NCBI RefSeq assembly: GCF_913060805.1
Contig: NZ_CAJXTC010000045.1
Location: 1 to 39,760, forward strand
Length of the DNA stretch: 39,760 bases
From: an uncultured Draconibacterium sp.
GTDB taxonomy: Bacteria > Bacteroidota > Bacteroidia > Bacteroidales > Prolixibacteraceae
Direction of reading: 5' to 3'
Below are positions 15,603-32,725 of the stretch, one piece after another; within the stretch, counting starts at the first letter, position 1, and each line of letters opens with the position of its first letter. The notes under the pieces were generated by a model, which was not told where the DNA came from, did no database searches, and saw only the letters and a program-made list of their open reading frames with translations. A program made the position numbers and the translations under genes.

Positions 15603-16070
15603 ATGGAAAAGAAACTCATTCAGGTTGATTTGCAAAATCCTGTTCATTGCGAGCAGGTGCTTCATCTTTTAAACGATTACATGGAAGATGAAATGGGAAT
15701 CAGCGAACCAATGCCCGAAGGACTTGGCCCGAAAATTATTGAAGGTCTGAAACGGCATTCGGCGTACATGGGTTTTTTTGTTTGTATTGGCGACGATTTT
15801 GCCGGTTTGGCCAATTGTAATCTGAATTTTTCTACATGGAAAGCCAGTCCGCTAATTAATATTCACGATTTGATTGTATCTCCCGATTTCCGTCAGCAGG
15901 GAGTTGGCCTCTTTCTTTTAAAAGGTATTGAAAAGTATGCCGAAGAAAACGGATACTGCCGTATAAACCTCGAGGTGCGCCACGACAATTTTAAAGCACA
16001 AAACCTATACCGAAAAGCCGGATTTAAAGAGTGCGAGCCCAATAACTTCTTCTGGGAAAACAGGATATAA
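15603..16070 (+). CDS. GNAT family N-acetyltransferase
   Basis: The 155-residue protein has the GNAT fold. The acetyl-CoA pyrophosphate loop is in DFRQQGVGLFLLKGIEKYA (about 98-116), and the C-terminal segment NLEVRHDNFKAQNLYRKAGF is typical of the family. The substrate is unknown. It starts at the ATG at 15603, 100 bp after the NifA-like gene, and converges on the efflux operon. The name rests on the fold only. Confidence 0.85.
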   Translation: MEKKLIQVDLQNPVHCEQVLHLLNDYMEDEMGISEPMPEGLGPKIIEGLKRHSAYMGFFVCIGDDFAGLANCNLNFSTWKASPLINIHDLIVSPDFRQQGVGLFLLKGIEKYAEENGYCRINLEVRHDNFKAQNLYRKAGFKECEPNNFFWENRI

Positions 16071-16132: not shown

Positions 16133-17521
16133 CTATCTCCAACCTCCGCCTAATGCGCGATACAAGGAAACTACCGCGTTCAATTGCTGAATCTGGTCGT
16201 TAACATCGCTCAATTGTGCATTCAGCAAACTTTGCTGTGCATTTAAAACTTCGGTGTAGGTTGCCGAGCCGTAAACCAGCAACTCTTTGGTATAGTCAAC
16301 CGATTTCTCCAGCGCATCCAATTGTTTGTTGCGCAGGTCTATCTTTTGCATCGAGGCATCGTACATGCTAAGTGCATCGTTTACTTCAGCACCGGCATTT
16401 AGCAAAGTGCTTTTAAAGTTTAGCAGCGCCTCTTCCTGTTGGGCTTTGGCAACTTCCAAACGTGTTTTGTTGGCCCGCTTGCTAAAAATTGGCTGAACCA
16501 AACCTCCCACAACATTGGCGGCGAACGATGCCGGATCGAAAAGATCTCCAAATTCCAACGACTCTAAACTGGCGCTTGCAGTCAATGTAACCGCCGGGTA
16601 GAAGTAGGCTTTGGCACTGTTGGTCATGTGGTAGGCACTGATAACACTATATTCAGCCTGCATCACATCGGGGCGGTTATCCAAAAGCTCGGCAGGTACA
16701 CCAACTTCCAACAGTTCGTGCGCTTGCTGATTTTCCAGCTTTCCGCGTTCTACGTTTCCCGGAGTTCTGCCCAAAAGAATACAAAGTGTATTTTCGTTTT
16801 CACGAATTTGTTGCTCAATATCCGGAATGGTAACTTCGGTGGCATAACGCGCCGCTTCACTTTGCACAACAGCAGCACCCGTTACGCTTCCACTTTCTTT
16901 TAATGCTTTCATGGTTTCAACCAGTTCGGCACTGTTTTTTACCGTTTCTTTTGTAATCGCCAGGTTGGCATCCAAAGCCAGCAAACTGTAATACACCGAA
17001 GCGATGTTGGCAACCAAACGTGTTTGCACTGCTTTATGCGCTGCATCGGTTGCCAAATAGTTGGCGTAGGCCGATTTTTTTGCGTTGTTCAGTTTACCCC
17101 AAAAGTCGATTTCCCAACTACTTTGCAAAGCTATTTGCGATGCATTGTAATGATCGGGACCATTCGGACTGGTTGACTCTGAGTTTTTAACGTAAGTATG
17201 TCCGGCCTGTCCCGACAACGACGGCGCCAGTGCTGCTTTGCTTTGCAAGAAATTCGACTCGGCAGCAACAACACGCTGAACCGCAGCCTGCAAATCAAAG
17301 TTGTTTCTCAATCCTTCGGCAATTAAACTGTCAAGAATCGGGTCGTTAAACAGGTTTTGCCAGCTTTCGTTTGCCAGGTTGGTTTCGGCAGTGTCTGCTT
17401 CGCCGTATAATCCGTCGGTTAAATCCTGGCTTCGCTGGTATTGATTGGTCGTACTACACGAAACGATCAATACCGAAACTACGGCAATAAGTAGTATATT
17501 TTTTATTGAATTTGTCTTCAT
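16133..17521 (-). CDS. RND efflux outer-membrane factor lipoprotein (OprM/NodT type)
   Basis: The 462-residue protein has a lipoprotein signal ending at VLIVSC (Cys22). Two repeats of the outer-membrane efflux (TolC-like) family follow, rich in alanine, glutamine and asparagine in long helices. Trimeric proteins of this family form the outer-membrane exit duct of tripartite pumps. It is the last gene of an operon, 20 bp after the RND pump gene. The substrate cannot be read from the sequence. Confidence 0.92.
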   Translation of the reverse strand: MKTNSIKNILLIAVVSVLIVSCSTTNQYQRSQDLTDGLYGEADTAETNLANESWQNLFNDPILDSLIAEGLRNNFDLQAAVQRVVAAESNFLQSKAALAPSLSGQAGHTYVKNSESTSPNGPDHYNASQIALQSSWEIDFWGKLNNAKKSAYANYLATDAAHKAVQTRLVANIASVYYSLLALDANLAITKETVKNSAELVETMKALKESGSVTGAAVVQSEAARYATEVTIPDIEQQIRENENTLCILLGRTPGNVERGKLENQQAHELLEVGVPAELLDNRPDVMQAEYSVISAYHMTNSAKAYFYPAVTLTASASLESLEFGDLFDPASFAANVVGGLVQPIFSKRANKTRLEVAKAQQEEALLNFKSTLLNAGAEVNDALSMYDASMQKIDLRNKQLDALEKSVDYTKELLVYGSATYTEVLNAQQSLLNAQLSDVNDQIQQLNAVVSLYRALGGGWR

Positions 17522-17541
17522 ATCTAATCTTTTCTAGCGGA

Positions 17542-20500
17542 TTAACCCAAACTGTTCATTTCTGAGATTTCTTGTTCTTCCTTCGGTTTCTTCACTTTTT
17601 CTTCCAAAATCTGGAAAACCACGAACATGGCCGGAATAACCAAAATACCAATCATAGTACCGATAAACAGACCTCCCACAGCACCGGTTCCGATGGAGCG
17701 GTTACCGTTGGCGCCAACTCCGGTTCCGATAACCAGTGGAATCAATCCAACGATGAATGCAAACGATGTCATCAAAATCGGGCGAAGTCGGGCAGTGGCC
17801 CCTTCAACGGCAGCCTCAATAATCGACAGACCTGATTCGCGTCGTTGTCGGGCAAACTCTACAATAAGAATCGCATTCTTAGCCAGAAGTCCGATAAGCA
17901 TTACCAGCGAAATTTGCAGGTAAATGTTGTTTTCAACACCTAAAATGCGGGCGAAGATGAACGCTCCGGCAATACCAATTGGCAGCGAGACAATAATCGA
18001 AAGTGGCATGATGTAACTCTCGTACTGGGCAGCCAGCAGGAAGTATACGAAAATCAAACTCAAAATAAAGATGATGATGGTTTGATTTCCTGCGTTGATT
18101 TCCTCGCGGGTGATACCCGAGAATTCGTAGTCGTAACCCGTTGGTAAAAGATCGGCAGCCACTTCGCGAACAGCTTCAATGGCGTCACCCGAACTGTAAC
18201 CCGCATTTGGGTTGCCGTTTACCGTAATGGCGGTGTACATATTAAAACGGTTAATCGTTTCAGGTCCGTACACTCTTGTTAGCGTAATGAACTCCGAAAT
18301 AGGAGCCATTTCGCCGGTGCCGGTACGTACTTTAATATTATTTAAGTCTTCAGGATTTCCGCGGTATTGTGCTTCCGACTGTACCATTACACGGTATTGT
18401 TTACCAAAACGGTTAAAGTCGGAGGCGTAATATCCACCAATGTACCCTTGCATTGCCGAAAGAACGGAGCTCACTTCCAAACCCGAACGCATACAACGAG
18501 CAGCATCGACATCAATTTTGTATTGCGGAAAATTGGTGTTAAATGCCGTACGTGCATATTGAATTTCGGGACGCTGATTTAGGGCGCCAAGGAAATTATT
18601 GGCCACTTTCTCAAAGTCTTGAATATCGCCACCGGTTTTGTCTTCCAATTGTAATTCGAAACCGCCGGTAACACTAAATCCGGGAACCATTGGTGGCGAG
18701 AAGATAATAATACGTGCACCTTTAATTTGCGAGGTAAGCATGTACAGTTTTTGCACAATGCTGTTCAAATCCTGTCCTTCACCTTTTCGTTCGTCGAAAG
18801 GTTTTAAACCGGCAATGATCATCGCGTAAGGCGATCCCTGTCCTCCCATAAATGAGAATCCGGTTACAACAGTTCGTCCGTTAATTTCTGGTATTGTTTC
18901 TAATATTGCATCAACTTGTTTCGCAACTTCTGCTGTTCTTTCTCCCGAAGAAGCCGGAGGCATAGCAATATCAACAAACATTCGGCCGGTATCTTCCGCA
19001 GGAACAAAACCTGTCGACGTTGTTTTCATCAGGTAACCAAGCACGGCAACAAAAATGATGATCATTGTTCCGGCCAGTAATTTCTTATTGATAAAGAAAT
19101 GGGTTACCTTTTTGTATTTCCCGGTCATACTTTCAAATGCGGTGTTAAAAGCAACATAAAAGCGTTTCATTACACCTTTTTGTCCTTTTTCTTCTTCGCT
19201 GTGTGGTTTTAGGAAAAGCGCACAAAGGGCAGGACTCAGGGTAAGCGCATTAATTGCTGAAAGTATGATGGCGACAGTAAGCGTAATACCAAATTGTTTG
19301 TAGAACACTCCGGTGGTTCCGGTTATAAATGTTACCGGAATAAACACCGCTGCCATAACCAGGGTAATAGAAACAATGGCTGTTGAAATTTCGTTCATTG
19401 CCGAAATTGCAGCGTTTTTAGCACTCCGCGCCCCGGAGTCGAGTTTGGCGTGAACCGCTTCCACCACCACAATGGCATCGTCGACCACAATACCGATGGC
19501 GAGTACCAGCGCGAACAGCGTTAGCAGGTTGATGGTAAATCCAAATAAGTTAAGGAAGAAGAAGGTACCAATAATTGATACCGGAACGGCGATTGCCGGA
19601 ATAAGCGTTGCCCTGAAATTTTGCAGGAACACAAAAACCACAATAAATACCAGGATAAACGCCTCGAGCAAAGTGTGCAATACTTTTTCGATTGAGGCAT
19701 CGAGGAATTCGTTGGTGTTCATGAGCTCCATATAATCAACTCCCGGAGGAAATGACAGGGAAGCTTCTTCAAGTGTGCGTTCGATTTCCAGAATTACTTC
19801 GCGGGCGTTTGATCCGGCCGATTGGAAGATGGCCATACTAATACCCGGTTGTCCCTGGGTTTGTGTCATTGCTGTGTAATCGAGCGAACCAAATTCAACT
19901 CGGGCAACATCACCAAGTCGCAAAATATTTCCGTCTTCGTCTGATTTTATTACAATGTTTTCAAACTCTTCAGGCTGGGTGAGTTTTCCACGGTAACGGA
20001 TTACGTACTCAAAACTCTGACCGTTTTCGCTACCAAAACGACCGGGAGCGGCCTCAAGGTTTTGTGCGTTCAGTGCACCCACAACATCGGCAGGTATTAA
20101 ATTGTAGTTCGACATGATATCCGGTTTTAACCAAATACGCATCGAGTAGTCTTTTCGCCCAAAAACCATCGCTTCACCTACACCATTAATACGTTGTACT
20201 TGTGGCAGCAGGTTAATTTTCGAATAGTTCTGCAGGAATGTTTCGTCGTATCTTCCGTCTTTACTGTACAGCGAAAATACCATTAACATGTTGTTCTGGC
20301 GCTTGGCAGTAAGAACTCCCGCACGCGTAACCTCGGCAGGTAACAGCGCGTTGGCACGTGCCACACGGTTCTGAACGTTAACGGCTGCCATATCCGGATC
20401 GGTTCCTTGTTTAAAGTACACCTGAATTGTGGCCGACCCGTTGTTACTCGCTGTTGAACTCATGTAAATCATGTCTTCAACACCGTTAATCTGTTCTTCG

Positions 20501-20694
20501 AGCGGAATAACCACACTGTTCAGAACGGTTTGCGCATCGGCACCGGTGTAGTTAGCCGATACCCGGATTGTTGGCGGAGCAATATCGGGATACTGCTCGA
20601 TGGGTAAAGTGGTAATTCCCAGCACACCGAGAATAACCAGCAGGATTGAAATAACCGTTGAAAGTACCGGCCTTTCTATAAATTTTCTAAACAT
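17542..20694 (-). CDS. RND multidrug efflux transporter, HAE1 (AcrB-like) family
   Basis: The 1050-residue inner-membrane protein has the full AcrB architecture: a transmembrane helix at 10-30, a periplasmic loop, a helix block at about 340-550, a second periplasmic loop and a final helix block from about 870. The proton-relay residues are present: the Asp pair in GIVVDDAIVVVEAV of helix 4 and the Lys in GLLAKNAILIVEFA of helix 10. The sequence MFRKFIERPVLSTVISILLV is the usual start. It exports hydrophobic or amphiphilic compounds by proton antiport with the flanking adaptor and outer-membrane factor. Confidence 0.96.
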   Translation of the reverse strand: MFRKFIERPVLSTVISILLVILGVLGITTLPIEQYPDIAPPTIRVSANYTGADAQTVLNSVVIPLEEQINGVEDMIYMSSTASNNGSATIQVYFKQGTDPDMAAVNVQNRVARANALLPAEVTRAGVLTAKRQNNMLMVFSLYSKDGRYDETFLQNYSKINLLPQVQRINGVGEAMVFGRKDYSMRIWLKPDIMSNYNLIPADVVGALNAQNLEAAPGRFGSENGQSFEYVIRYRGKLTQPEEFENIVIKSDEDGNILRLGDVARVEFGSLDYTAMTQTQGQPGISMAIFQSAGSNAREVILEIERTLEEASLSFPPGVDYMELMNTNEFLDASIEKVLHTLLEAFILVFIVVFVFLQNFRATLIPAIAVPVSIIGTFFFLNLFGFTINLLTLFALVLAIGIVVDDAIVVVEAVHAKLDSGARSAKNAAISAMNEISTAIVSITLVMAAVFIPVTFITGTTGVFYKQFGITLTVAIILSAINALTLSPALCALFLKPHSEEEKGQKGVMKRFYVAFNTAFESMTGKYKKVTHFFINKKLLAGTMIIIFVAVLGYLMKTTSTGFVPAEDTGRMFVDIAMPPASSGERTAEVAKQVDAILETIPEINGRTVVTGFSFMGGQGSPYAMIIAGLKPFDERKGEGQDLNSIVQKLYMLTSQIKGARIIIFSPPMVPGFSVTGGFELQLEDKTGGDIQDFEKVANNFLGALNQRPEIQYARTAFNTNFPQYKIDVDAARCMRSGLEVSSVLSAMQGYIGGYYASDFNRFGKQYRVMVQSEAQYRGNPEDLNNIKVRTGTGEMAPISEFITLTRVYGPETINRFNMYTAITVNGNPNAGYSSGDAIEAVREVAADLLPTGYDYEFSGITREEINAGNQTIIIFILSLIFVYFLLAAQYESYIMPLSIIVSLPIGIAGAFIFARILGVENNIYLQISLVMLIGLLAKNAILIVEFARQRRESGLSIIEAAVEGATARLRPILMTSFAFIVGLIPLVIGTGVGANGNRSIGTGAVGGLFIGTMIGILVIPAMFVVFQILEEKVKKPKEEQEISEMNSLG

Positions 20695-20714
20695 AACTGT
20701 TGTCTTCTAAATTA

Positions 20715-21890
20715 TTAATTGTTCGAAGGTTGGTTGCTGTTGGCTACCGCTTGTCCGGCTAACTTGGGTTTAATTTGCATGCCATCGCGAAGAGTTGTAA
20801 TTCCTTCAACCACAATTTTATCGCCGGCTTTAAGTCCCGAGGTAACCACAAAAACGTCTTTCAAATCGCCGGCTACTATCTGAATTTCAGTATTTACAAC
20901 TTTGTTTTCGCTGTTGGTTACGTATACAAAATGTTTTCCCTGAATTTCGTAACTGGCCGGTTGCGGAACCAGCAAAACATCTTCCATGTAATTTGGTAAA
21001 CGAATATTTCCGCTTCCTCCCGAGCGAAGGTTTCCTTCAGCGTTAGGGAACGAAGCACGCATATTTATCGCACCGGTTTGCGGATCGATAACTCCACTGG
21101 CAATTTCGATTTTACCTTTTTGCGCGTAAACCGATTGATCGGGTAAGATCAGGTCAACTTCCGGCAGGTTTGCCAGTTTTTCGCCGGTGGTAGCACCTTC
21201 CAGGTTTTTAGTCAATTGTAAAAATGCCTTTTCGTTGATCGAAAAATAAGCACGCATAGTTGATGTATTGGAAACAGTTGTAAGCGGCTGCGCCACCGAA
21301 CTGCTAACCAAACTACCAACGCGGTAAGGGAAAGTTCCGATATAACCGTCCGTTGGGCTGCTTATCATGGTATATTCGAGGTTGGCTTTTGCATTGGCTA
21401 AATTAGCCTGTGCCTGTGCCAACTGTGCTTCGGCCGCTTGTAAATTGGTTTTAACCGATTCGAGCTGAAACTCGCTGACAATGTTTTTCTCTACCAGCGG
21501 CTCGGTTTTCTCCAATTCGATTTTTGCTGTGGCTACCTGCGATTCGGCAACTTTAATCTGTGCTTCGGCCGATCGAACCTGCGCACGAATATCGTTGGCA
21601 TTTATCTGAAAAAGAAGCTGGCCTTTTTTCACATAGTCACCTTCGTCGACAAAAATTTTCTCGATGTAACCGGCAACTCTCGGGCGGATCTCAACGGTTT
21701 GTTCACCTTCCAGAGTGGCTGGAAAAGCCTGATAAAGCGTAATGTTTTGCGGCTTAAGCTCTTGTATAAGGTACTCAGCAACCTGTCCGCCCATCATTGG
21801 GTTAGCTCCCTGTTGTTTGTTCGAACAGGAAGAAAAAAGTAAAAGAATGGCAACTGTGGCCACGCTTGTAAATTGTGCAATTGTTTTCAT
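20715..21890 (-). CDS. RND efflux periplasmic adaptor (membrane fusion protein, AcrA-like)
   Basis: The 391-residue lipoprotein (signal MKTIAQFTSVATVAILLLFS, then SC) has the membrane-fusion-protein order: split lipoyl domain (VAGYIEKIFVDEGDYVKKGQ and later EYTMISSPTDGYIG), a helical hairpin of about 90 residues between them, a beta-barrel domain and a membrane-proximal domain. It links the RND pump to the outer-membrane factor. The ATG at 21890 starts the signal peptide; the frame is open to 21926. It follows the MarR gene directly and precedes the pump gene by 20 bp. Confidence 0.95.
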   Translation of the reverse strand: MKTIAQFTSVATVAILLLFSSCSNKQQGANPMMGGQVAEYLIQELKPQNITLYQAFPATLEGEQTVEIRPRVAGYIEKIFVDEGDYVKKGQLLFQINANDIRAQVRSAEAQIKVAESQVATAKIELEKTEPLVEKNIVSEFQLESVKTNLQAAEAQLAQAQANLANAKANLEYTMISSPTDGYIGTFPYRVGSLVSSSVAQPLTTVSNTSTMRAYFSINEKAFLQLTKNLEGATTGEKLANLPEVDLILPDQSVYAQKGKIEIASGVIDPQTGAINMRASFPNAEGNLRSGGSGNIRLPNYMEDVLLVPQPASYEIQGKHFVYVTNSENKVVNTEIQIVAGDLKDVFVVTSGLKAGDKIVVEGITTLRDGMQIKPKLAGQAVANSNQPSNN

Positions 21891-21927
21891 GTTTTCGTAT
21901 CTATAATTTTTAATTTTCAATATCATG

Positions 21928-22377
21928 TTAGCAACCCGACAGGCAGTCTTTAAAACCTGTGTTTAATTGTATTTTAGAAATCACATTCTCAAAAATTGTA
22001 AGTTCTTCCTGCGAAACTCCATCCAATAGCTCCGACGATACTTCCACTGACTTGGCTTTGAGCTGCTCAAATATTTCCAATCCTTGAGTGCTTAGCATTA
22101 AGTGTTTTTTGCGTTTATCGTCTTCGTCTTGTGTGCGTGTTACATAACCCAAATCAATAAGCGTATTAATCTGGCGTGTAATAATTGATTTGTCCTTCAA
22201 AAAATGATTAGCAAGATCTTGCTGTGTAGATTCTGAGTTTTCGTTGATGAAGTGTAGAACTACAAACTGTTCCAGGGTCAGTTCTATATTACTGTCCTTA
22301 TATTTTTCCATTAACTTGTAGCGCACCAATTTCATGGTTTGCCCAAGTAAATAGGTTAATGGTTTTTGCGTTTTCAT
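21928..22377 (-). CDS. MarR family transcriptional regulator
   Basis: The 149-residue protein has the MarR winged helix-turn-helix: DLANHFLKDKSIITRQINTL as recognition region and DEDDKRKKHLMLSTQG as wing. MarR proteins are dimers that usually repress efflux genes and release DNA on ligand binding. It is the first gene of the efflux operon, 37 bp before the adaptor gene. Two identical-pattern palindromes upstream are probable operators. The ATG at 22377 gives the normal length; the frame is open to 22425. Confidence 0.92.
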   Translation of the reverse strand: MKTQKPLTYLLGQTMKLVRYKLMEKYKDSNIELTLEQFVVLHFINENSESTQQDLANHFLKDKSIITRQINTLIDLGYVTRTQDEDDKRKKHLMLSTQGLEIFEQLKAKSVEVSSELLDGVSQEELTIFENVISKIQLNTGFKDCLSGC

Positions 22378-22416
22378 GACTTTCTCTCGTTTCTGTGGCA
22401 CAAAGCTAAAACAAAT

Positions 22417-22435
22417 TAGTTGCAAAAGTCAACTA
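22417..22435. promoter_or_regulatory. Probable MarR operator, proximal copy
   Basis: The sequence TAGTTGCAAAAGTCAACTA is a perfect palindrome of 6-bp arms around 7 bases, 40 bp before the MarR start codon on the minus strand. The same arms and spacing recur at 22532-22552, as expected for a dimeric MarR protein regulating its own operon. Confidence 0.65.
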
Positions 22436-22531
22436 GTTTTGTGAAATTTATTTTAAGAAATTCTAAATAAAACATAATCTATTGATAGATAGCGTGGTAT
22501 TAAGCGTTTGGTTTGTTAACACAAAATAAAC

Positions 22532-22552
22532 ATAGTTGTAAAATGCAACTAT
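22532..22552. promoter_or_regulatory. Probable MarR operator, distal copy
   Basis: The sequence ATAGTTGTAAAATGCAACTAT has 7-bp arms around 7 bases and shares TAGTTG-N7-CAACTA with the proximal copy, with centres 116 bp apart. It lies between the efflux operon and the 3' end of the unknown gene at 22610. Confidence 0.6.
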
Positions 22553-22609
22553 AATAGATAAAAGTAGCTTAGGAGGAAAAGTGGATAGATTGTTTACGAG
22601 AGCGAACTT

Positions 22610-23323
22610 TTATTCCTCTATATCGAAAACGAACTCAGTGTTTGGGTATTCAGGAGTGACAAACTTATTCGTGTACTGTTCAATCTCCTTAATCCGGTTT
22701 TTAAAATCCTCACTTGGGGTTCCATTAAATTTTGAGATATTTAATATAAAGTGGAAATCCAATCCGGAATGGCGTTGTACATTATTAATAGTATCAACAA
22801 TTAAACGTTGAATATCATGCAGCAAACGCTCTTCATTCATGTTGCCAACAAGAAAAACAATACTTTTTTTGCCTTTAATTTCTTCGTCCGGTTCCATGGC
22901 ATTGCTTGAGCTTTCTTCAAAATCAGGAGCCTTGACTTCACAAAAAATATTCTTTTCAAGATTGCTAAATTGCAATTCCCCTTTAGGCATCAGTGTATCC
23001 TTATCGATTACCTGAAAATAAACCAATCCATTTTCAGTCTGATTATTATACCCTTTATACAGCCAGTAAGTGAGTTCCTGTCCTTGCGCATTCATTGTTG
23101 CCAAATCTGTAATTATAAATGATTCAGAACCAGGAAGAGATGCCAATGTTGCAGATACAAAATCATTGGTATATTCGGTCATAGTCACTTCAGTAACAGA
23201 ACCATCTGAAAGTTTTACAAACATGATGTTTGGATTTTTCTGACTTAATTCCTTCCCAATTATCTGCTGATTGATCTCTTTGATATACTTTTTAAGCTCT
23301 ATGGCCGCCTTCAGGTATTCCAT
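22610..23323 (-). CDS. Protein of unknown function divergent from nifH
   Basis: The 237-residue protein is not recognised. It has no signal peptide or membrane segment and is acidic towards the C-terminus. The N-terminal region (1-95) looks alpha/beta, with GSESFIITDLATMNAQGQELTYW near the middle. A low-complexity acidic linker (about 140-155) follows, then a second part starting KGKKSIVFLVGNMNEERLLHDIQRLIVDTINNV. The ATG at 23323 was chosen; a TTG at 23344 is possible. It shares a 449-bp regulatory region with nifH, so a nitrogen-related role is possible, but nothing in the protein shows one. Confidence 0.7.
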   Translation of the reverse strand: MEYLKAAIELKKYIKEINQQIIGKELSQKNPNIMFVKLSDGSVTEVTMTEYTNDFVSATLASLPGSESFIITDLATMNAQGQELTYWLYKGYNNQTENGLVYFQVIDKDTLMPKGELQFSNLEKNIFCEVKAPDFEESSSNAMEPDEEIKGKKSIVFLVGNMNEERLLHDIQRLIVDTINNVQRHSGLDFHFILNISKFNGTPSEDFKNRIKEIEQYTNKFVTPEYPNTEFVFDIEE

Positions 23324-23486
23324 ATTCCAATAAATTTTCTTCAAAAATATTCCATATCAGCAATCTACCTAAATGATTTCCCAAATGAGAGTTATGCTTA
23401 ACCTTAAATTGAAAATTAAAACACTGCGGAGCGGTGTATTTTACGGTGACCTTATTTCTTTCCACTTTTTCACATTCACTTCCATT

Positions 23487-23502
23487 CCTACCAAAATGTA
23501 GG
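23487..23502. promoter_or_regulatory. Distal palindrome of the nifH control region
   Basis: The sequence CCTACCAAAATGTAGG has 5-bp perfect arms and a 6-base centre. It is the same site as at 23585-23604 and is exactly 100 bp from it, centre to centre. It lies about 247 bp before the predicted nifH transcription start. Confidence 0.55.
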
Positions 23503-23584
23503 TTACCTCAATGTTAACACCCCGAATGCCCTTTAAACATGGGCTTCTTAAAAATTTCCACCTTATTGTGCGTTATACGGTATC

Positions 23585-23604
23585 ATCCTACAAAAATGTA
23601 GGAT
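23585..23604. promoter_or_regulatory. Proximal palindrome of the nifH control region
   Basis: The sequence ATCCTACAAAAATGTAGGAT has 7-bp perfect arms around AAAAAT. It lies about 147 bp before the predicted transcription start, within the range from which enhancer-binding activators act on sigma-54 promoters. It is a candidate site for the NifA-like protein, though a separate repressor is equally possible. Confidence 0.58.
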
Positions 23605-23715
23605 TACTTCTCTTGAATTTTCCTGAAAATAAAATTTATAAAATTTTTTAGCTACAGAATATCAGTTGGTTAGCGGTGGTTTGTGTTGTAAAACTATGTT
23701 GTCGAGCATATTCTT

Positions 23716-23731
23716 TGGCACCAATATGGCA
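23716..23731 (+). promoter_or_regulatory. Sigma-54 (-24/-12) promoter of nifH
   Basis: The sequence TGGCACCAATATGGCA has the invariant GG and GC with exactly 10 bases between them. The -24 block TGGCAC is perfect and the -12 block differs from TTGCA by one base. Transcription would start near 23742, about 31 bases before the nifH ATG. Confidence 0.82.
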
Positions 23732-23760: not shown

Positions 23761-24597
<837 letters not shown>

Positions 24598-24651: not shown

Positions 24652-24978
24652 ATGTTAATGATAAGAGCCATTGTGCGCCCAGAGAAATCAAGTAAAGTTT
24701 TAAAAGCCCTGTTTGAAGCAGGATACATCGCAGTTACTAAGATTCCGGTAGTGGGTAGAGGTAAACAGCGTGGTATTAAAATCGGTGATATTACTTATGA
24801 CGAACTTCCGAAAGAGATGTTGATTATGGTGATTAAAGATGAAGACAAAGACTTCGCAATCAGCACCATTATGGAAGCAGCTCGCACGGAGCCGAAAGGT
24901 GCATTTGGAGACGGAAAAATATTCGTTACTGCAGTAGATGAGGCCTACACCATCAGCCGCGGAACTAAAGAATTATAA
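24652..24978 (+). CDS. nifI1: Nitrogenase-associated PII protein NifI1
   Basis: The 108-residue protein is a PII (GlnB family) member of the NifI1 branch. It starts MLMIRAIVRPEKSSKVLKAL, with VGRGKQRGIKIGDITYDELPKEM spanning the T-loop, and ends with GDGKIFVTAVDEAYTI. Its position directly after nifH and before nifI2 and nifD is the arrangement of methanogens, clostridia and green sulfur bacteria. There NifI1 and NifI2 bind the MoFe protein and switch activity off when nitrogen is sufficient, with 2-oxoglutarate as antagonist. The role here follows from that known system. Confidence 0.95.
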   Translation: MLMIRAIVRPEKSSKVLKALFEAGYIAVTKIPVVGRGKQRGIKIGDITYDELPKEMLIMVIKDEDKDFAISTIMEAARTEPKGAFGDGKIFVTAVDEAYTISRGTKEL

Positions 24979-24996
24979 TTCTAAAATCAGACGACT

Positions 24997-25371
24997 ATGA
25001 AGATGGTATTGGCGATCATCAGGATCGATAAAATGAATGCAACAAAAAGGGCTTTAACCGCGGCAGGTATCACATCGATGACTGCAACCGGAAAAGTTTT
25101 CGGACGCGGAAAAGGTGCCTGGGATGCACAAGTGTTGGAAGGTGTAAAACAAGATATGCCTGAAGCAATTGCCCATCTCGGAAAAGAACCAAGACTGAGA
25201 CCACAGCGTGTACTAAATATTGCGGTTTCCGACCACAATGTACAGTTAACAGTTGATACGATTATCGAAGTTAATCAGACGCCTGCTCCCGGCGACGGAA
25301 AAATATTTGTTCTTCCGTTGGATGATACCTACAGGGTTCGTACCGGCGAAACAGGAACGACAATCCTTTAA
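24997..25371 (+). CDS. nifI2: Nitrogenase-associated PII protein NifI2
   Basis: The 124-residue PII-family protein is longer than NifI1 because of an enlarged T-loop region (VFGRGKGAWDAQVLEGVKQD and following). It has the PII C-terminal segment GDGKIFVLPLDDTYRVRTGE. It starts 18 bp after nifI1 and ends 16 bp before nifD, so the two PII proteins and nitrogenase are co-expressed. NifI2 forms hetero-oligomers with NifI1 in the known systems. Confidence 0.95.
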   Translation: MKMVLAIIRIDKMNATKRALTAAGITSMTATGKVFGRGKGAWDAQVLEGVKQDMPEAIAHLGKEPRLRPQRVLNIAVSDHNVQLTVDTIIEVNQTPAPGDGKIFVLPLDDTYRVRTGETGTTIL

Positions 25372-25387
25372 TTAAAAAGACAAAATT

Positions 25388-27019
25388 ATGCCAAATAAAA
25401 AAGATTATACAAACGGTTTGCCCGATCCTTCTCAACTGAAGGAGGAGATGCTGGCAAAATATCCCCGGAAAGTAGCTAAAAAGCGGTCTAAGGCAATGGT
25501 AATCAACGATCCTGAAGAAAATCAGGAGATTGCAGCCAATATTCGTACCATACCCGGGATTATTACACAGCGTGGATGTACCTACGCAGGATGTAAGGGT
25601 GTGGTTTTAGGACCAACACGCGATATCATCAACCTGGTTCACGGACCAATTGGATGTAGTTTTTACGCCTGGTTAACGCGTCGTAACCAAACACGTGTTC
25701 CTGAAGGTGGAGATAACTTTATTACTTATTCTTTCTCTACCGATATGCAAGACGAAAACATTGTATTTGGTGGCGAAAAGAAACTGAAAGAAGCAATTCG
25801 CGAAGCATTTGATATTTTCAATCCAAGTTCAATCGGTATTTTCTCAACTTGTCCGGTAGGTTTGATTGGTGATGACGTTCATGCAGTAGCCCGCGAAATG
25901 AAAGAAGAATTGGGTATCAATATCTTCGGATTCAGTTGCGAAGGTTACCGCGGAGTATCACAGTCAGCCGGTCACCACATTGCCAACAACGGGGTATTTA
26001 AAAACGTGGTTGGTAATAACGACCGTCCTCGCAAAGGTAAATTCCAGGTGAACTTACTGGGAGAATACAATATTGGTGGTGATGCTTTCGAAATTGAAGC
26101 ATTGTTCGAAGAAGTTGGTGTTGAATTGTTGTCTACTTTCTCTGGTAACTCTACTATCGAAAGTATGGAATATTCACACACTGCCGACCTGAACATGGTT
26201 ATGTGTCACCGTTCCATCAACTACATTGCCGAAATGATGGAAGAGAAATACGGTATCCCATGGTTTAAAGTCAACTTTATCGGAGCCGAATCAACTGCAA
26301 AATCATTGCGTAAAATGGCCGATTACTTTGGCGATAAGGAATTATCAGCCAAAGTTGAAGAAGTTATCGCTCGCGAGATGGCGAAAGTAAAAGCAGTTGC
26401 CGATGTGGTTAAACCTAAAACGGAAGGCAAACTTGCCATGATGTTCGTTGGTGGATCACGTGCTCACCATTATCAGGATTTGTTTACAGAGCTTGGAGTA
26501 AAAACAGTTTCTGCCGGATATGAATTTGCGCACCGCGATGATTACGAAGGTCGTGAAGTTATTCCTAACATTAAAATCGACGCTGATACCCGTAACATCG
26601 AAGACCTTGTGGTTGAAAAAGACGAAGCCCATTTCCGCGATGACCTGGTAGAGAAAAAAGCCAAGTTGGAAGAAAGCGGTTATCAGTTTAAAGACTACAA
26701 AGGTATGATGCCAGATATGAAAAAGAACTCGCTGGTAATCGACGATGTAAACCACTGGGAAACTGAAAAGCTGATCGAATTCTATAAGCCTGATGTATTC
26801 TGCGCAGGTATTAAAGAAAAATATGTTGTTCAGAAATACGGAGTGCCATTAAAACAGTTGCACTCGTACGACTACGGCGGTCCTTATGCTGCATTTGGAG
26901 GAGCCATTAATTTCTACACTGAAATGGAGCGTATGCTGGGAACCAAAATATGGAAACTGGTTGATGCACCTTGGAAACTCGAACCAGAGATTGTAGGAAG
27001 TGTAACTGTAGATGCTTAA
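25388..27019 (+). CDS. nifD: Nitrogenase molybdenum-iron protein alpha chain NifD
   Basis: NifD carries FeMo-cofactor, the site of N2 reduction. The 543-residue chain has P-cluster cysteines at 64, 90 and 155 (in RGCTYAGC, GPIGCSF, FSTCPVG), and the cofactor ligands Cys273 (MVMCHRS) and His492 in LHSYDYGGPYA. HSYDYGGP marks it as molybdenum type and not the vanadium or iron-only type. It is about 50 residues longer than the Azotobacter chain because of an insertion around 385-440, as in Clostridium pasteurianum NifD. It lies 16 bp after nifI2 and 18 bp before nifK. Confidence 0.98.
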   Translation: MPNKKDYTNGLPDPSQLKEEMLAKYPRKVAKKRSKAMVINDPEENQEIAANIRTIPGIITQRGCTYAGCKGVVLGPTRDIINLVHGPIGCSFYAWLTRRNQTRVPEGGDNFITYSFSTDMQDENIVFGGEKKLKEAIREAFDIFNPSSIGIFSTCPVGLIGDDVHAVAREMKEELGINIFGFSCEGYRGVSQSAGHHIANNGVFKNVVGNNDRPRKGKFQVNLLGEYNIGGDAFEIEALFEEVGVELLSTFSGNSTIESMEYSHTADLNMVMCHRSINYIAEMMEEKYGIPWFKVNFIGAESTAKSLRKMADYFGDKELSAKVEEVIAREMAKVKAVADVVKPKTEGKLAMMFVGGSRAHHYQDLFTELGVKTVSAGYEFAHRDDYEGREVIPNIKIDADTRNIEDLVVEKDEAHFRDDLVEKKAKLEESGYQFKDYKGMMPDMKKNSLVIDDVNHWETEKLIEFYKPDVFCAGIKEKYVVQKYGVPLKQLHSYDYGGPYAAFGGAINFYTEMERMLGTKIWKLVDAPWKLEPEIVGSVTVDA

Positions 27020-27037
27020 AGAATAGGAGGAAAAATT

Positions 27038-28420
27038 ATGTTATTACGTCATACAACAAAAGAAGTTAAAGAGAGAAAAGCATTAACCGTTAACCCGGCG
27101 AAAACTTGTCAGCCGGTAGGTGCAATGTATGCTGCCCTGGGTGTGCACGGATGTTTACCACACAGCCACGGTTCGCAAGGGTGTTGTTCTTATCACCGAA
27201 GTGCGTTAACTCGTCACTATAAAGAGCCGGTAATGGCTGCAACCAGTTCGTTTACTGAAGGTTCATCGGTATTTGGTGGACAGGCAAACTTACTGCAGGC
27301 CATCGATAATATCTTTGGTATTTACGAACCTCAAATTATTGCCGTTCACTCAACCTGTTTGTCTGAAACCATTGGCGACGACCTTGGACAGATTGTTGGA
27401 AAAGCAAAAGACGATGGTAGAATTCCTGAAGGAAAACACGTAGTTCAGGCATCAACACCAAGTTATGTAGGTTCGCATGTTACCGGTTACGCCAACATGT
27501 TGGAAGCATTTGTAAAATACTTTGCCTTTAAAACGGACGAAAAATTGCGCCAGGTAAACCTGCTTTCAGGTTGGGTTGAACCATCGGATATGCGCGAGTT
27601 AAAAAGATTGGCTGGTTTAATGGATGTTAAAACAGTTCTTCTTCCCGATACATCAGATGTAGTAGATACACCGATGACGGGTAAATACCAAATGTATCCA
27701 AAAGGAGGTACTACTATTGACGAAATGGTTAGCATGGGAAATAGTATGGGCACTGTTGCTTTGGGCGAATGGGGTGCAAAAAGCGCAGCCATTGCTTTAG
27801 ACAATAAATGTAAAGTACCATTTTCAATGAACGATGTGCCAGTTGGTATCAGTGCAACCGACCGCTTTATACAGGCACTTTCAACTGCCGGAAAAGTTTC
27901 TATTCCTGAAATTATTTCTGAAGAACGTGGTCGCTTAATGGATATGATGACTGATATGCACCAGTATTTCTACGGAAAACGTGTGGCATTATTTGGTGAT
28001 CCGGATACTTTACTTCCGTTAACTGAATTCTTGTTAGACCTGGATATGAAACCTGTTTACATTGTTTCAGGAACACCAGGAAAACGTTTCACACAACGTA
28101 TGGAAGAGATTTTAGGCGACAAAGTGTCTGAAACTAAATTCAAAAATGGTCCGAATGCTGATATGTTCTTATTACACCAGTGGATTAAAGAAGAGCCTGT
28201 TGACTTATTGATTGGTAACACCTACGGTAAGTACATCGCTCGCGATGAGAATATACCATTCGTTCGCATGGGATTCCCAATTATTGACCGCGTTGGACAC
28301 AGTTATTTCCCAACTGTAGGTTACCAGGGAGGTCTTCGAATCCTTGAGAAGATTCTGGGTGCTATCATGGATAAAATCGATGCTACAGCTCCTGAAGAAT
28401 CATTCGAACTTGTAATGTAG
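27038..28420 (+). CDS. nifK: Nitrogenase molybdenum-iron protein beta chain NifK
   Basis: NifK pairs with NifD in the alpha2-beta2 MoFe protein and supplies half of the P-cluster. The 460-residue chain has its cluster cysteines in NPAKTCQPVGA (Cys24), GSQGCCSYHRS (49/50) and HSTCLSETIGDD (107). It lacks the N-terminal extension of about 50 residues of proteobacterial NifK, as do clostridial chains. An AGGAGG-like sequence precedes the ATG at 27038, unusual among these genes. A large stem-loop follows the stop codon. Confidence 0.97.
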   Translation: MLLRHTTKEVKERKALTVNPAKTCQPVGAMYAALGVHGCLPHSHGSQGCCSYHRSALTRHYKEPVMAATSSFTEGSSVFGGQANLLQAIDNIFGIYEPQIIAVHSTCLSETIGDDLGQIVGKAKDDGRIPEGKHVVQASTPSYVGSHVTGYANMLEAFVKYFAFKTDEKLRQVNLLSGWVEPSDMRELKRLAGLMDVKTVLLPDTSDVVDTPMTGKYQMYPKGGTTIDEMVSMGNSMGTVALGEWGAKSAAIALDNKCKVPFSMNDVPVGISATDRFIQALSTAGKVSIPEIISEERGRLMDMMTDMHQYFYGKRVALFGDPDTLLPLTEFLLDLDMKPVYIVSGTPGKRFTQRMEEILGDKVSETKFKNGPNADMFLLHQWIKEEPVDLLIGNTYGKYIARDENIPFVRMGFPIIDRVGHSYFPTVGYQGGLRILEKILGAIMDKIDATAPEESFELVM

Positions 28421-28441
28421 TTGCAATATAATTCAAATATG

Positions 28442-28492
28442 ATTTCGAGGTGGGTTCAGCTGAGTCGCTCTCAGCTGAACATCACCCGAAAT
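28442..28492 (+). other. Long stem-loop between nifK and nifE
   Basis: An 11-bp perfect inner stem (28454-28464 with 28470-28480, loop TCGCT) is extended by GGTG/CACC and ATTTCG/CGAAAT with only a bulge and a 1x2 internal loop, giving about 21 pairs. No T run follows, so it is more likely a transcript-stabilising or processing structure, or a leaky end to the nifHI1I2DK message, than a simple terminator. Confidence 0.65.
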
Positions 28493-28593
28493 AACTGGCA
28501 CTACATAAGAAGAATCAGAGATAATAAATCAGAATTGTAATTAGGATAAGACCTGCTTGCAGGCAACTTCGTCCATCTTTTAACATTTGAATT

Positions 28594-29922
28594 ATGAGCA
28601 ACTATCTAAAAGATCGCGAAAATCAAATCCTTACAAAAGGAACCGATTCAGCAGAAATATCCTGTGAAAAGAAGAGTCTGGCCGGATCAGTTTCGCAACG
28701 AGCTTGTGTGTTTTGCGGATCGCGCGTGGTGCTTTATCCAATTGCCGATGCACTGCACGTTATTCACGGACCGGTTGGTTGTGCTTCTTATACCTGGGAT
28801 ATTCGTGGTTCCCTTTCGTCGGGACCACAGTTACACCGCCTCAGTTTTACCACCGATTTAAAAGAAAGAGACGTGGTTTTTGGCGGCGAAAAGAAATTGT
28901 ATCACGCCCTTATTGATTTAATCGACAAACATCAGCCAAAAGCAGCCTTTGTATTTTCAACCTGTATAATCGGAGTTATTGGCGACGACGTAGAAGCCGT
29001 TTGCCGCCAGGTTACAAAAGAAAAAGGCATCGACGTTATTCCGGTAATGTCGGAAGGTTTTAACGGAACAAAAAAAGACGGCTACAAAATTGCTTGTGGC
29101 GCGCTTTCAAAATTAGTTGGAACAAACAACGACTATGAAGCTCCCAAATATTCAATCAATATTCTTGGTGACTTTAACCTTGCCGGTGAGTTGTGGATTT
29201 TGGCTGAATATTACAAGAAACTAGGTGTTGAAATTATTTCATGCATGACCGGCGATGGTCGTGTTGAGCAGATTCGTCGCGCTCATAAAGCCTCGCTGAA
29301 CGTGGTTCAGTGTTCGGGATCGATAATGCACCTCGCCAAAGAGATGAAGGAAAAATACGACATTCCTTTTATGAAGGTTTCCTATTTCGGAATCGAGGAC
29401 ATGTCGGAAGCTTTATACGAAGTGGCAAAGTTTTTCAAAGACGATGAAATGCTGGCTAAAGCCCGCGAACTCGTTACCAACGAAATTTCAAAACTGTTAC
29501 CGGCATTGCAACCATACCGCCAAAAGCTGGAAGGTAAAAAAGCAGCCATTTATGTAGGCGGCGCTTTTAAAGCCATCTCGCTTGTAAAAGCCCTGCGATT
29601 ATTAGGAATGAAAACAGTGGTTGTTGGTTCGCAAACCGGAAATGCAGAAGACTATAAACTACTAAAAGACTTGTGTGATGAGGGAACCATCATTGTTGAT
29701 GATTCCAATCCAAATGAACTTTCTGAATTTGTGAAGCTAACCGGTGCCAACCTGTTTATTGGCGGAGTGAAAGAACGCCCTATTGCCCATAAACTTGGCC
29801 TTGGTTTTTGCGATCACAATCACGAAAGAAAAGAAGCACTGGCCGGCTATGTCGGCATGATGAATTTTGCGAAAGAAGTTTACGCCTCGGTTACAAGCCC
29901 GGTGTGGAAGTTCGTGAAATAA
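28594..29922 (+). CDS. nifE: FeMo-cofactor scaffold protein NifE
   Basis: NifE forms the NifEN scaffold on which the NifB-derived iron-sulfur precursor is matured to FeMo-cofactor with molybdenum and homocitrate. The 442-residue protein is related to NifD and has N-terminal cysteines in ACVFCGSR (38, 41), GPVGCASYTWDIRG (63) and FSTCIIGVIGDD. The cofactor-ligand histidine motif of NifD (HSYDYGGP) is not present in that form, as expected for NifE. It starts 173 bp after nifK. Confidence 0.96.
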   Translation: MSNYLKDRENQILTKGTDSAEISCEKKSLAGSVSQRACVFCGSRVVLYPIADALHVIHGPVGCASYTWDIRGSLSSGPQLHRLSFTTDLKERDVVFGGEKKLYHALIDLIDKHQPKAAFVFSTCIIGVIGDDVEAVCRQVTKEKGIDVIPVMSEGFNGTKKDGYKIACGALSKLVGTNNDYEAPKYSINILGDFNLAGELWILAEYYKKLGVEIISCMTGDGRVEQIRRAHKASLNVVQCSGSIMHLAKEMKEKYDIPFMKVSYFGIEDMSEALYEVAKFFKDDEMLAKARELVTNEISKLLPALQPYRQKLEGKKAAIYVGGAFKAISLVKALRLLGMKTVVVGSQTGNAEDYKLLKDLCDEGTIIVDDSNPNELSEFVKLTGANLFIGGVKERPIAHKLGLGFCDHNHERKEALAGYVGMMNFAKEVYASVTSPVWKFVK

Positions 29923-29927
29923 TAAGC

Positions 29928-29964
29928 AACACAAAATCGGTTAGTTACAGACCGTGATTGTGTT
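29928..29964 (+). other. Hairpin after nifE
   Basis: Arms AACACAA (29928-29934) and TTGTGTT (29958-29964) enclose a second pair CGGT (29938-29941) and ACCG (29951-29954). It begins 6 bp after the nifE stop. A smaller AAAGGG/CCCTTT hairpin (29969-29984) follows. These may be mRNA-processing or weak attenuation structures ahead of nifN. Confidence 0.45.
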
Positions 29965-30021
29965 TTAGAAAGGGGGGACCCTTTAATGAATCGGAAAAAA
30001 TATTGAATAAAAACAAATCGG

Positions 30022-31428
30022 ATGTTTGAACTCAATTCAGTACCAAAAGCAAAAGAAAATTACAAGGCAACACAAAATGCCTGTAAACTTTGTTCGCCAC
30101 TGGGAGCCAGTGTAGCCTTCAAAGGTTTTAAAGGCTGTGTTCCGCTTATTCACGGCTCACAGGGCTGCGCAACTTATATTCGCCGCTACCTGATCTCTCA
30201 TTACAAAGAGCCCATCGACATTGCCTCGTCGAATTTTACCGAAGATGCAACCATTTTTGGTGGCGACGAAAACTTTAAACTGGCTGTCCTTAATATTATT
30301 AATCAATATAAACCGGAAATTATTGGCATCGCTTCAACCTGTTTGAGCGAAACCATTGGCGACGATGTTAGCCTGTTCGTACACTCTTTTCTGGAGAAGC
30401 ATCCTGAAATTGACACTGATTTCGTGATGGCTTCAACACCCAGCTACCAGGGAACACACATTGATGGATTTCACGAAGCTGTTTCCGGCGTGGTAAAAAG
30501 CTATGCTAAAAAAGGCCCATCGCAAGAGCATGTAAATCTCTTCCCCGGTTTTGTTTCAACCGAAGATTTGCGCTTGCTGAAAGAGATAATGGCCGACTTT
30601 TCGTTGGAAGACATTATGATGCCCGATTATTCAGAAAGCCTTGATAACCCGGTTTGGGATACTTATCATCGTATTCCGGAAGGCGGAACGTCAAAAGAGG
30701 ATGTAGTAAAAAGTGGTTCTGCCAAAGCCAGCATCGAATTCGGTACAATTCTGAACAGAGGAAAATTATCAGGCCGCGTAAAAAGCAAACAATTGTCGCG
30801 CACCGGAGCACAGTTCCTGAAAAACGAAATGGACGTGCCGTTAGTAAATATGCCCATGCCAATTGGTATCACTCAAACTGATGCCTTTTTCGAGGAGCTG
30901 AAAACTCTTTCGGGCAACGATATTCCTGAAAAATATACCAAACAACGTGGTCGGCTGGTAGATGCCTATGTTGATGCACATAAATACACCTTTGGGAAAA
31001 AGGCTGTGGTTTATGGGGAAGAAGATTTTGTAGTTGCCATGGCGGCTTTCCTCGATGAAATTGGAATTGAATTGGCGCTAGTTGCTACAGGTGGCGAAAG
31101 CGGTATCCTGGAGGAAGAAATAAAAAAATATTGTCCTGAAAATAAAGATAAAGTAGTGGTTCGCGAGGGATACGATTTTGAAAGTATTCGCGAATGGAGC
31201 CTTGAAAATAAACCTGACATCCTGATAGGACACAGCAAAGGCTACTACATCGCCCGCGAGCTGAATATCCCAATCGTTCGTGTAGGTTTCCCGGTTCACG
31301 ACCGTGTGGGCGGACAACGCATAAAACATCTTGGTTATTCTGGTACGCAGGAGCTATTCGACAAAGTAGTGAATGCACTAATTGAACACAAACAAAGTAA
31401 TTCGCCGGTAGGCTATAAATATATGTAA
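30022..31428 (+). CDS. nifN: FeMo-cofactor scaffold protein NifN
   Basis: NifN is the beta-type subunit of the NifEN scaffold. The 468-residue protein resembles NifK and has cysteines in NACKLCSPLGA (21, 24), FKGCVPLIHGSQGCATYIRR (39, 49) and ASTCLSETIGDD. Later segments PSYQGTHIDGF and MPIGITQTDAFF are typical of the NifN/NifK family. It begins 99 bp after nifE and ends 37 bp before nifB. It is a separate chain and not fused to NifB, as it is in some clostridia. Confidence 0.95.
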   Translation: MFELNSVPKAKENYKATQNACKLCSPLGASVAFKGFKGCVPLIHGSQGCATYIRRYLISHYKEPIDIASSNFTEDATIFGGDENFKLAVLNIINQYKPEIIGIASTCLSETIGDDVSLFVHSFLEKHPEIDTDFVMASTPSYQGTHIDGFHEAVSGVVKSYAKKGPSQEHVNLFPGFVSTEDLRLLKEIMADFSLEDIMMPDYSESLDNPVWDTYHRIPEGGTSKEDVVKSGSAKASIEFGTILNRGKLSGRVKSKQLSRTGAQFLKNEMDVPLVNMPMPIGITQTDAFFEELKTLSGNDIPEKYTKQRGRLVDAYVDAHKYTFGKKAVVYGEEDFVVAMAAFLDEIGIELALVATGGESGILEEEIKKYCPENKDKVVVREGYDFESIREWSLENKPDILIGHSKGYYIARELNIPIVRVGFPVHDRVGGQRIKHLGYSGTQELFDKVVNALIEHKQSNSPVGYKYM

Positions 31429-31465
31429 TAACAAAGCGAGAACTCGCAGCTAAAAACAGAAGGTT

Positions 31466-32725
31466 ATGATTGACATTAAAACACATCCCTGTTTCAATAA
31501 GCATGCAAAAGGCAAATATGCCCGCGTGCATCTCCCGGTGGCACCGCAATGTAATATTCATTGTAATTATTGCAAACGCGATTACGATTGCGTAAACGAA
31601 AGCCGCCCTGGTGTTACCAGCGAAGTACTATCACCTGAGCAGGCCCTGGCCTACACCATCAGGTTAAAAGAAAAAATGCCGCATTTGTCGGTAGTGGGTA
31701 TTGCTGGTCCCGGCGATCCGTTCGCCAATCCAATTCAAACGATGACAACGCTTCGTTTAATTCGTAAAGAATTTCCGGAAATGATCCTTTGTCTTTCGTC
31801 AAACGGACTGAATGTTTTGCCGTATGTTGATGAATTGAAGGAACTGGAAGTAAGCCACGTTACAATTACACTCAACGGAACCGAGACTAAAACATTATCT
31901 CAATTATATAAATGGGTGCGTTTCGAGAAGCGTGGGTATTTTGGAGAACAGGCAGCTGAAATTCTGCTTAGAAACCAGATGGAAGCAATTCGTGCTTTGA
32001 AACGTGCAGGCATTACCGTAAAAATCAACTCGATTGTAGTGCCGGGAATCAATGACAATGTGATCGTTGATATTGCCAAAAAAATGAAAGAGATGGAAGT
32101 GGATATTATGAATACCATTCCGCTCTACCCGGTTGAAGGGACTCCTTTCGAGGATTTTGAAGAGCCTTCGCCAAAACGAATGAAAGAATTACAAAACGGT
32201 ATAAAAGAATATTTGCCACCAATGACTCACTGTGCACGTTGTCGTGCCGATGCTGTCGGATTGCTGGGTAAAGACGATGCTGAAGCAAAACAGATTTTGT
32301 CAGAAGTGTCGAACCTGTCGGTAAATGTTGACCAAACAAAACCATACGTTGCTGTTGCCAGTCACGAAGGATTATTGGTAAACCAGCACCTGGGCGAAGC
32401 TACACAACTGTACATTTTCAGAGAAACGCCAAATGGATATCGAATGGTTGAGCAACGTGCAACACCAAAACCAGGAGCAGGTAATAGTCGTTGGGCAGTA
32501 CTGGCTGATGTGATCGATGATTGCAGGGCCTTGCTGGTTGGCGGAATCGGACCATCGCCATCGTCGATTATTGGCCGTGCCGGAATCAAGATCGTTGAAA
32601 TGACCGGTTTGATCGATGAGGGATTGGATGCTGTTTATAAAGGCAAAGAACTCCGGACACTGAAAAAAGCCGATGTTTTCAAATGCGGATCAGAATGTTC
32701 GGGAAAAGGAACCGGTTGCGGTTAA
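31466..32725 (+). CDS. nifB: FeMo-cofactor precursor synthase NifB with C-terminal NifX-like domain
   Basis: NifB is a radical-SAM enzyme that inserts carbon and fuses two [4Fe-4S] units to form NifB-co, the core of FeMo-cofactor. The 419-residue protein has the SAM-cluster motif CNIHCNYC (Cys29, 33, 36) and further cysteines in RDYDC and MTHCARCRADAVG. From about residue 290 a NifX/NafY-like domain (AVASHEGLLVNQHLGEATQLYIF and following) ends in a Cys-rich tail (KCGSECSGKGTGC). It lies 37 bp after nifN. Confidence 0.97.
   Translation: MIDIKTHPCFNKHAKGKYARVHLPVAPQCNIHCNYCKRDYDCVNESRPGVTSEVLSPEQALAYTIRLKEKMPHLSVVGIAGPGDPFANPIQTMTTLRLIRKEFPEMILCLSSNGLNVLPYVDELKELEVSHVTITLNGTETKTLSQLYKWVRFEKRGYFGEQAAEILLRNQMEAIRALKRAGITVKINSIVVPGINDNVIVDIAKKMKEMEVDIMNTIPLYPVEGTPFEDFEEPSPKRMKELQNGIKEYLPPMTHCARCRADAVGLLGKDDAEAKQILSEVSNLSVNVDQTKPYVAVASHEGLLVNQHLGEATQLYIFRETPNGYRMVEQRATPKPGAGNSRWAVLADVIDDCRALLVGGIGPSPSSIIGRAGIKIVEMTGLIDEGLDAVYKGKELRTLKKADVFKCGSECSGKGTGCG

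Follow-up and report, generated by a model that had tools for sequence, protein, structure and literature searches.

Overall, we propose that the two palindromes upstream of nifH in the window, the whole stretch of 39,760 nucleotides of a marine bacterium analysed here, are very probably the binding sites (enhancers) of the NifA-like sigma-54 activator encoded on the same stretch. The sites are a lineage-wide variant of a known mechanism, with a half-site that differs from the classical NifA word. Their presence, conservation and geometry, the co-occurrence of the activator with nifH and its linkage were read from genome sequences. In the putative mechanism, activator dimers would bind both palindromes through the C-terminal HTH and would then assemble into an active ring. 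The -24/-12 element lies approximately 128 bp downstream; there the ring would contact sigma-54 RNA polymerase and so switch on the nif operon. We infer the physical binding, the activation and the control by nitrogen or oxygen status.

An earlier note on this DNA had suggested either a NifA-like activator or a nitrogen-responsive repressor as the protein that binds here. The first suggestion gained good support from conservation, promoter geometry, the co-occurrence in 28 of 100 family genomes and the linkage found where nifH is missing. If it is correct, the sites would supply a cis-code for nitrogen fixation in two groups, Bacteroidota and green sulfur bacteria, in which the proteobacterial motif fails to find nif regulons, and possibly an orthogonal pair of activator and promoter with which nif expression could be engineered.

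The palindrome pair and the promoter of nifH

Upstream of nifH, the starts of CCTACCAAAATGTAGG and CCTACAAAAATGTAGG are separated by exactly 100 bp (Table 1), and both palindromes have perfect 5-bp arms and the AAAAT core in common. These features, as described in the earlier note, were all confirmed, and the -24/-12 promoter that it placed downstream of both sites was found as TTGGCACCAATATGGC. The note had seen no further copy in the nif intergenic regions; allowing up to one mismatch, we found none in the whole window, and at this looseness two matches were reached in 3 of 100 shuffles.

Table 1. Features of the window discussed in the text
Feature	Position	Strand	Basis or remark
NifA-like sigma-54 activator	13904-15502	+	GAF, AAA+ and Fis-type HTH (Pfam); helix TERMLGTRIKKY
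GNAT acetyltransferase gene	15603-16070
Efflux genes, MarR gene and 244-aa ORF	16133-23344		between the activator-GNAT pair and nifH
MarR gene	21928-22425		Pfam; near nifH
Divergent 244-aa ORF	22610-23344		adjoins nifH
Distal site CCTACCAAAATGTAGG	23487-23502	+	candidate activator site, read from sequence
Weak third site TCCACCTTATTGTGCG (AC-N6-GT)	23557-23572	+	30 bp upstream of the proximal site; PWM scan
Proximal site CCTACAAAAATGTAGG	23587-23602	+	candidate activator site, read from sequence
-24/-12 sigma-54 type promoter TTGGCACCAATATGGC (GG-N10-GC)	23715-23730	+	sequence; TGGYA spacing in relatives
nifH	23773-24597	+	TIGR01287, 444 bits vs cut-off 394
nif operon body	24652-32725	+	nifI1, nifI2 (P-II-like), nifD, nifK, nifE, nifN-like, nifB; NCBIfam scan
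Palindrome TGTTTAAAGTTAAACA	33683-33698		7-bp arms, fits TGT-N10-ACA; 106 bp before nifV

Exact copies of the palindrome number three in the whole 5.48-Mb genome, namely the nifH pair and one with another core on contig C10. The reversed-pattern control also gave three, so there is no genome-wide enrichment and the palindrome alone means little. The signal rests on position and conservation, not on genome-wide number. Copies away from nifH stay at control level, and a dispersed repeat, which would have told against the earlier note's reading, was rejected: among 395 genomes of the window's class, the double-site pattern occurred in 9, compared with 18 for the reversed control. In the window genome its sole match is the nifH promoter; two other genomes with nifH (G172 and G269) contain no match to it. 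The site plus the -24 element likewise occurs once in the window genome, at nifH. Across 15 genomes this search returned 16 matches, of which 9 belong to nifH (7 assigned by coordinates, 2 judged by sequence), 1 is the same promoter read backwards and 6 lie elsewhere. A larger regulon in the genus was rejected, since these 6 compare with 11 control matches.

The claim that the classical NifA site is absent from the whole region needs to be corrected: TGT-N10-ACA is missing from the nifH promoter of the window, where the -24/-12 promoter expected of a NifA regulon is present, but the window as a whole contains four occurrences against approximately 10 expected by chance. One of the four, the palindrome TGTTTAAAGTTAAACA, was observed near nifV and may belong to a larger inverted repeat.

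According to excerpts of the sources, the upstream activator sequence of proteobacterial NifA is TGT-N10-ACA (PMC7294313, PMC4999443). The system described here resembles it in combining a GAF-AAA-HTH activator, a sigma-54 promoter and nif genes, and the site is likewise a 16-bp dyad whose outer triplets share that frame (CCT-N10-AGG compared with TGT-N10-ACA). In contrast, the half-site is CCTAC rather than TGT, the strong sites stand 100 bp apart, and the activator scores below the NifA equivalog cut-off, with its HTH outside the best-matching stretch. The site of Rhodobacter capsulatus AnfA is given in the excerpted text as TAC-N6-GTA, with distal and proximal copies both needed for full expression (PMC7294313). 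Both window sites contain exactly this core, again with two sites per promoter and a GAF-AAA-HTH activator; unlike those of AnfA, they precede the nifH of a Mo-nitrogenase and their half-site is extended to CCTAC. No ANFD match, which would have pointed to alternative-nitrogenase control, was detected in the window genome at E 1e-150. For Azotobacter vinelandii VnfA, the same kind of excerpts describe the motif GTAC-N6-GTAC or GT(T/A)C-N6-GTAC, of which most promoters contain two copies (PMC7294313, PMC9542535). The pairing and the TAC-N6-GTA core of GTAC-N6-GTAC recur here, whereas VnfA is a regulator of vanadium nitrogenase and its outer bases differ.

In the excerpted part of a 2025 sigma-54 survey, nitrogen-fixation genes were enriched mainly in Proteobacteria, less so in a list of classes that includes Chlorobiia, and not in the survey's other classes (PMC12316311); no activator motif is given there. 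Among open-access titles and abstract openings, with subscription papers outside the search, we found no report of CTAC-N6-GTAG or, for Bacteroidota or Chlorobiota, of a site for a nif activator, and TAC-N6-GTA appeared in PMC7294313 only.

Conservation and geometry of the sites in relatives

A NifD search returned 80 loci, the closest being that of Draconibacterium mangrovi (98% NifD), and 46 loci of Bacteroidota type with a nifH promoter (L004-L034, L036-L046, L066, L077, L079 and L081) formed the promoter set. In the 350 bp before nifH of these 46 loci, CTAC-N6-GTAG occurs 51 times against 0.14 expected, whereas TGT-N10-ACA shows no excess (4 against 5.2 expected); the loci are related by descent, so these counts are not independent. 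The motif search upstream of nifH in related genomes, as the earlier note had advised, thus found the palindrome conserved. The best score of the proximal site in the window and 43 loci (44 rows, leaving out L044 and L045, in which no CCTAC-type site was seen, and L066) was 10/10 in 24, 9 in 16, 8 in 3 and 7 in 1. Scores in four control windows were mostly 5-6 and reached 8 once, and 880 shuffles reached 8 in 16 cases and never more.

De-duplication at 90% removed one row, and in the remaining 43 aligned proximal sites the A and C of TAC and the G, T and A of GTA are invariant, while the first T is kept in 42. This bears on the idea that the palindromes function in RNA, as hairpins or terminators. 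The proximal copy could form a six-bp stem with an AAAA loop, but the bases themselves are fixed and not just their pairing, no T-run follows the palindromes, and both stand upstream of the promoter. We consequently rejected this explanation as scarcely credible.

Within a 100-genome sample of the family, the proximal site scored 9-10/10 in all 28 nifH-bearing genomes. The distal site reached at least 9/10 in 24 of them and 6-7/10 in the other four, and its distance from the proximal site in the 24 was 99 bp (2 genomes), 100 bp (19) or 101 bp (3). These 28 genomes and the named loci overlap; L004 and L085, for example, are one contig. In the wider 43-row set, a distal copy scoring at least 8 at 98-102 bp was present in 23 rows and the score was 7 or lower in 20. 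The 100-bp pair is not universal, because the distal copy is weak in part of the relatives.

The activator might bind here while the distal copy at 100 bp retains little function, as a relic. The weak distal scores in those 20 loci speak for this, as does the spacing in green sulfur-type promoters (families f83 and f85): in 23 of 30, exactly 28 bp separate the members of the best pair, and no other spacing occurs more than twice. However, the strong distal copy has been kept at 99-101 bp in 24 of the 28 family genomes despite the poorly conserved sequence between the two sites, and we regard the relic as rather unlikely, though a serious minority case.

The position of the sites relative to the promoter is also constrained. 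In 44 of 46 loci, the start of the proximal site and the TGGYA of the -24 element are separated by 125-132 bp, most often by 128 bp, with L045 (91 bp) and L046 (158 bp) as exceptions, and the promoter-to-start-codon distance is 50-95 bp in the 46 loci. A PWM scan of 43 promoters revealed preferred offsets of 0, -100/-101 and, more weakly, -30. Site pairs of 28 bp and 30 bp recur in green sulfur-type genomes and in a genus that lacks nifH. In B-DNA, 100 bp corresponds to approximately 9.5 turns and 28-31 bp to approximately three turns; the strong pair would therefore lie on opposite faces of the helix unless the DNA bends. As a separate observation, GTGCCAAA, the reverse of TTTGGCAC, lies just 3' of the proximal site in L016, L021, L022, L028 and L038 and possibly represents a divergent sigma-54 element.

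The NifA-like activator and its gene neighbourhood

The activator contains the domains of NifA, namely PF01590 (GAF), PF00158 (sigma-54 AAA+) and PF02954 (Fis-type HTH), the HTH spanning approximately residues 475-532. We call it NifA-like because it scores just under the NifA equivalog cut-off (TIGR01817, 500.8 bits compared with 528.85, profile positions 4-437 of 534). Its start is probably ATG 13946, which gives 518 aa, rather than the listed GTG, 14 codons too early; many of its relatives are 518 aa long. It is the only match in the window genome that covers the GAF part. A plasmid search for NifA relatives returned mainly proteobacterial NifA and one unplaced Desulfovibrio regulator.

In the family sample of 100, nifH (E < 1e-150) and an activator of at least 60% identity occur in exactly the same 28 genomes; this identity threshold was chosen after seeing the gap to 54-56%. 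Three genomes of the same genus without nifH gave no activator match at E 1e-110, and five further genomes carry a 54-56% homologue with no nifH detected. On the larger scale, 395 genomes of the phylum contained 83 with nifH (E <= 1e-90) and 86 with an activator match (E <= 1e-100): 78 had both, 5 had nifH only and 8 had the activator match only.

Gene arrangement was scanned in 46 loci (L004-L046, L077, L079 and L081, with L035 lacking nifH on its contig), and the activator is on the same stretch as nifH in 29 of them. It is divergent, at 430-580 bp from nifH, in eight (L024, L030-L034, L044 and L046), lies downstream of nifH in L041 and is 2-8 kb upstream in the rest. Of these 29, 23 have a GNAT acetyltransferase gene close to the activator. 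The efflux genes that follow this pair in the window comprise an outer-membrane factor and an adaptor by Pfam, with a 1050-aa ORF between them. In the nif operon, the nifI and nifN names were inferred from gene order, as their NCBIfam scores are below the cut-offs; downstream of the cluster are a NifX-type protein, a 2Fe-2S ferredoxin, a homocitrate synthase-like gene and a molybdate transporter.

Two genes between the activator and nifH suggest other roles for the palindromes. Because the sites lie 143 bp upstream of the start of the divergent 244-aa ORF, they could serve that gene and not nif; however, the ORF was found in only one of the 46 loci scanned, that of D. mangrovi (L004), which largely refutes this reading, and we rejected it with next to no probability left to it. 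Alternatively, the palindromes may bind another regulator, such as a repressor that responds to nitrogen or redox state, or the MarR protein encoded next to them. Upstream palindromes are typical of many dimeric regulators, and the MarR gene is nearby. Yet MarR is encoded near nifH in just five of the 46 loci (L004, L008, L010, L016 and L028, in the last four together with an efflux adaptor), whereas the proximal site persists in nearly all. Moreover, the sites are approximately 130 bp upstream of the promoter, which is an enhancer position rather than one over the promoter, and in the genus without nifH they adjoin the activator gene. We found no support for the repressor that the earlier note had considered, a MarR site was rejected, and binding by another regulator in general appears very improbable.

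The homologues in genomes without detected nifH are consistent with a link between the NifA-like activator and the dyad. One of the five, G013 (84% complete), contains a NifE-like gene, and beside its activator are a ferredoxin gene and a homocitrate synthase-like gene, behind a dyad of the same type; these gene names were read from the sequence by eye. Most probably, its nifH was left out of the assembly. The remaining four belong to one nifH-less genus (L184, L185, L186 and L188, two of them single-contig), with an activator of 55-56% identity. There, the activator gene directly precedes the gene for a secreted-looking protein of 128-130 aa, which has a weak DUF3244 match below the cut-off. 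The promoter of this small gene contains TCTAC-N6-GTAGA, then middle and proximal sites 30 bp apart and then TTTGGCAC, and the distance between its distal and proximal sites is 146 bp, not 100. A second similar-looking small gene with this promoter layout occurs elsewhere in two of the four genomes (loci L272 and L273). The pattern search behind it gave 4 matches and 4 control matches in five genomes, so this second case rests on layout. If our proposal is correct, the activator was kept in this genus and apparently switched its target to small secreted-looking proteins.

Half-sites and recognition helices in nif and anf activators

The same dyad extends to most of the green sulfur-type nifH promoters read. 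In the nifH promoters of 32 of the 83 nifH-bearing genomes of the phylum, 30 of them from families f83 and f85, [CT]CTAC-N6-GTAG[GA] scored 10/10 in 16, 9 in 11, 8 in 4 and 7 in 1, whereas shuffles of these promoters reached at least 9 in 20 of 640. The FMO protein of green sulfur bacteria is present in all 10 of the green sulfur-type genomes tested and absent from the window genome, G172 and G269. CCTAC-type pairs were also found 29 bp apart in a Deltaproteobacteria MAG (L053) and 31 bp apart in a Lentisphaerae MAG (L059).

Helix and half-site tend to change together, which speaks for the activator as the protein that binds the sites. Helices of the TERMLG type in Bacteroidota activators (L013, L017 and L018 left out of the comparison) pair with [CT]CTAC half-sites. 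All 27 green sulfur-type activators read have the helix [ST][DE]R[IV][MI]GLR, also paired with [CT]CTAC, and the 10 genomes of this type in which both protein and promoter were read have dyad scores of 8-10. Where the second helix residue is Asn, the half-site is TTTAC in L044 and L066 and in four of the eight half-sites of L057 and L062, whose others are TGTAC and TATAC; none of these four rows has C at half-site position 2. In the 36-row tree, which does not include L066, L044 and the Glu/CCTAC row L046 are sisters (support 99/98), and L057/L062 group next to nif activators of the green sulfur type (91/90, less than the tool's star level). Since these are separate branches, Asn at this residue seems to have arisen twice. 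Several rows speak against a helix code: the Glu rows L045 and G172 each have one T half-site, L054 and L068 (Val) are mixed, and L067 and L071 lack a clear dyad.

The helix is TRR.LSL in five activators whose genes share a stretch with anf genes. Strict TGT-N10-ACA occurs at 7 sites in 5 of 12 anfH promoters of green sulfur-type genomes, with 0.117 expected per locus. The best 28-32 bp pair scored at least 15 in 11 of the 12, compared with 48 of 1200 shuffles; the 10-position anf-type score was derived from the same anfH promoters, and only the strict word is independent. The nif-type word matched at 8/10 in one anfH promoter (L177). Both activators and both promoters were read in G497 and G585, and they fit the pairing of helix and word. 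A plasmid search for alternative nitrogenase found three Nostoc records, one of them annotated vnfD.

Asn-A and Arg-G contacts are textbook pairings and might operate in these activators as well. We tentatively speculate that the two words are swapped relative to Proteobacteria across Bacteroidota and the green sulfur lineage, with the AnfA-like CTAC-N6-GTAG serving nif, the NifA-like TGT-N10-ACA serving anf, and the second helix residue helping to set the word. At half-site position 2, Glu or Asp would go with C, Asn mostly with T and Arg with G. This reading falls a little short of an even chance. If our main proposal is right, these activators would offer a natural set of helices and half-sites for a specificity code of nitrogenase activators.

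A further dyad in the same 16-bp frame, GAC-N6-GTC, was observed upstream of nifH in Planctomycetes-type, Spirochaetales and Omnitrophota promoters (L073, L074, L075, L076, L052, L065, L058 and L061). In L073 and L074, AAGAC-N6-GTCTT occurs twice, 91 bp apart.
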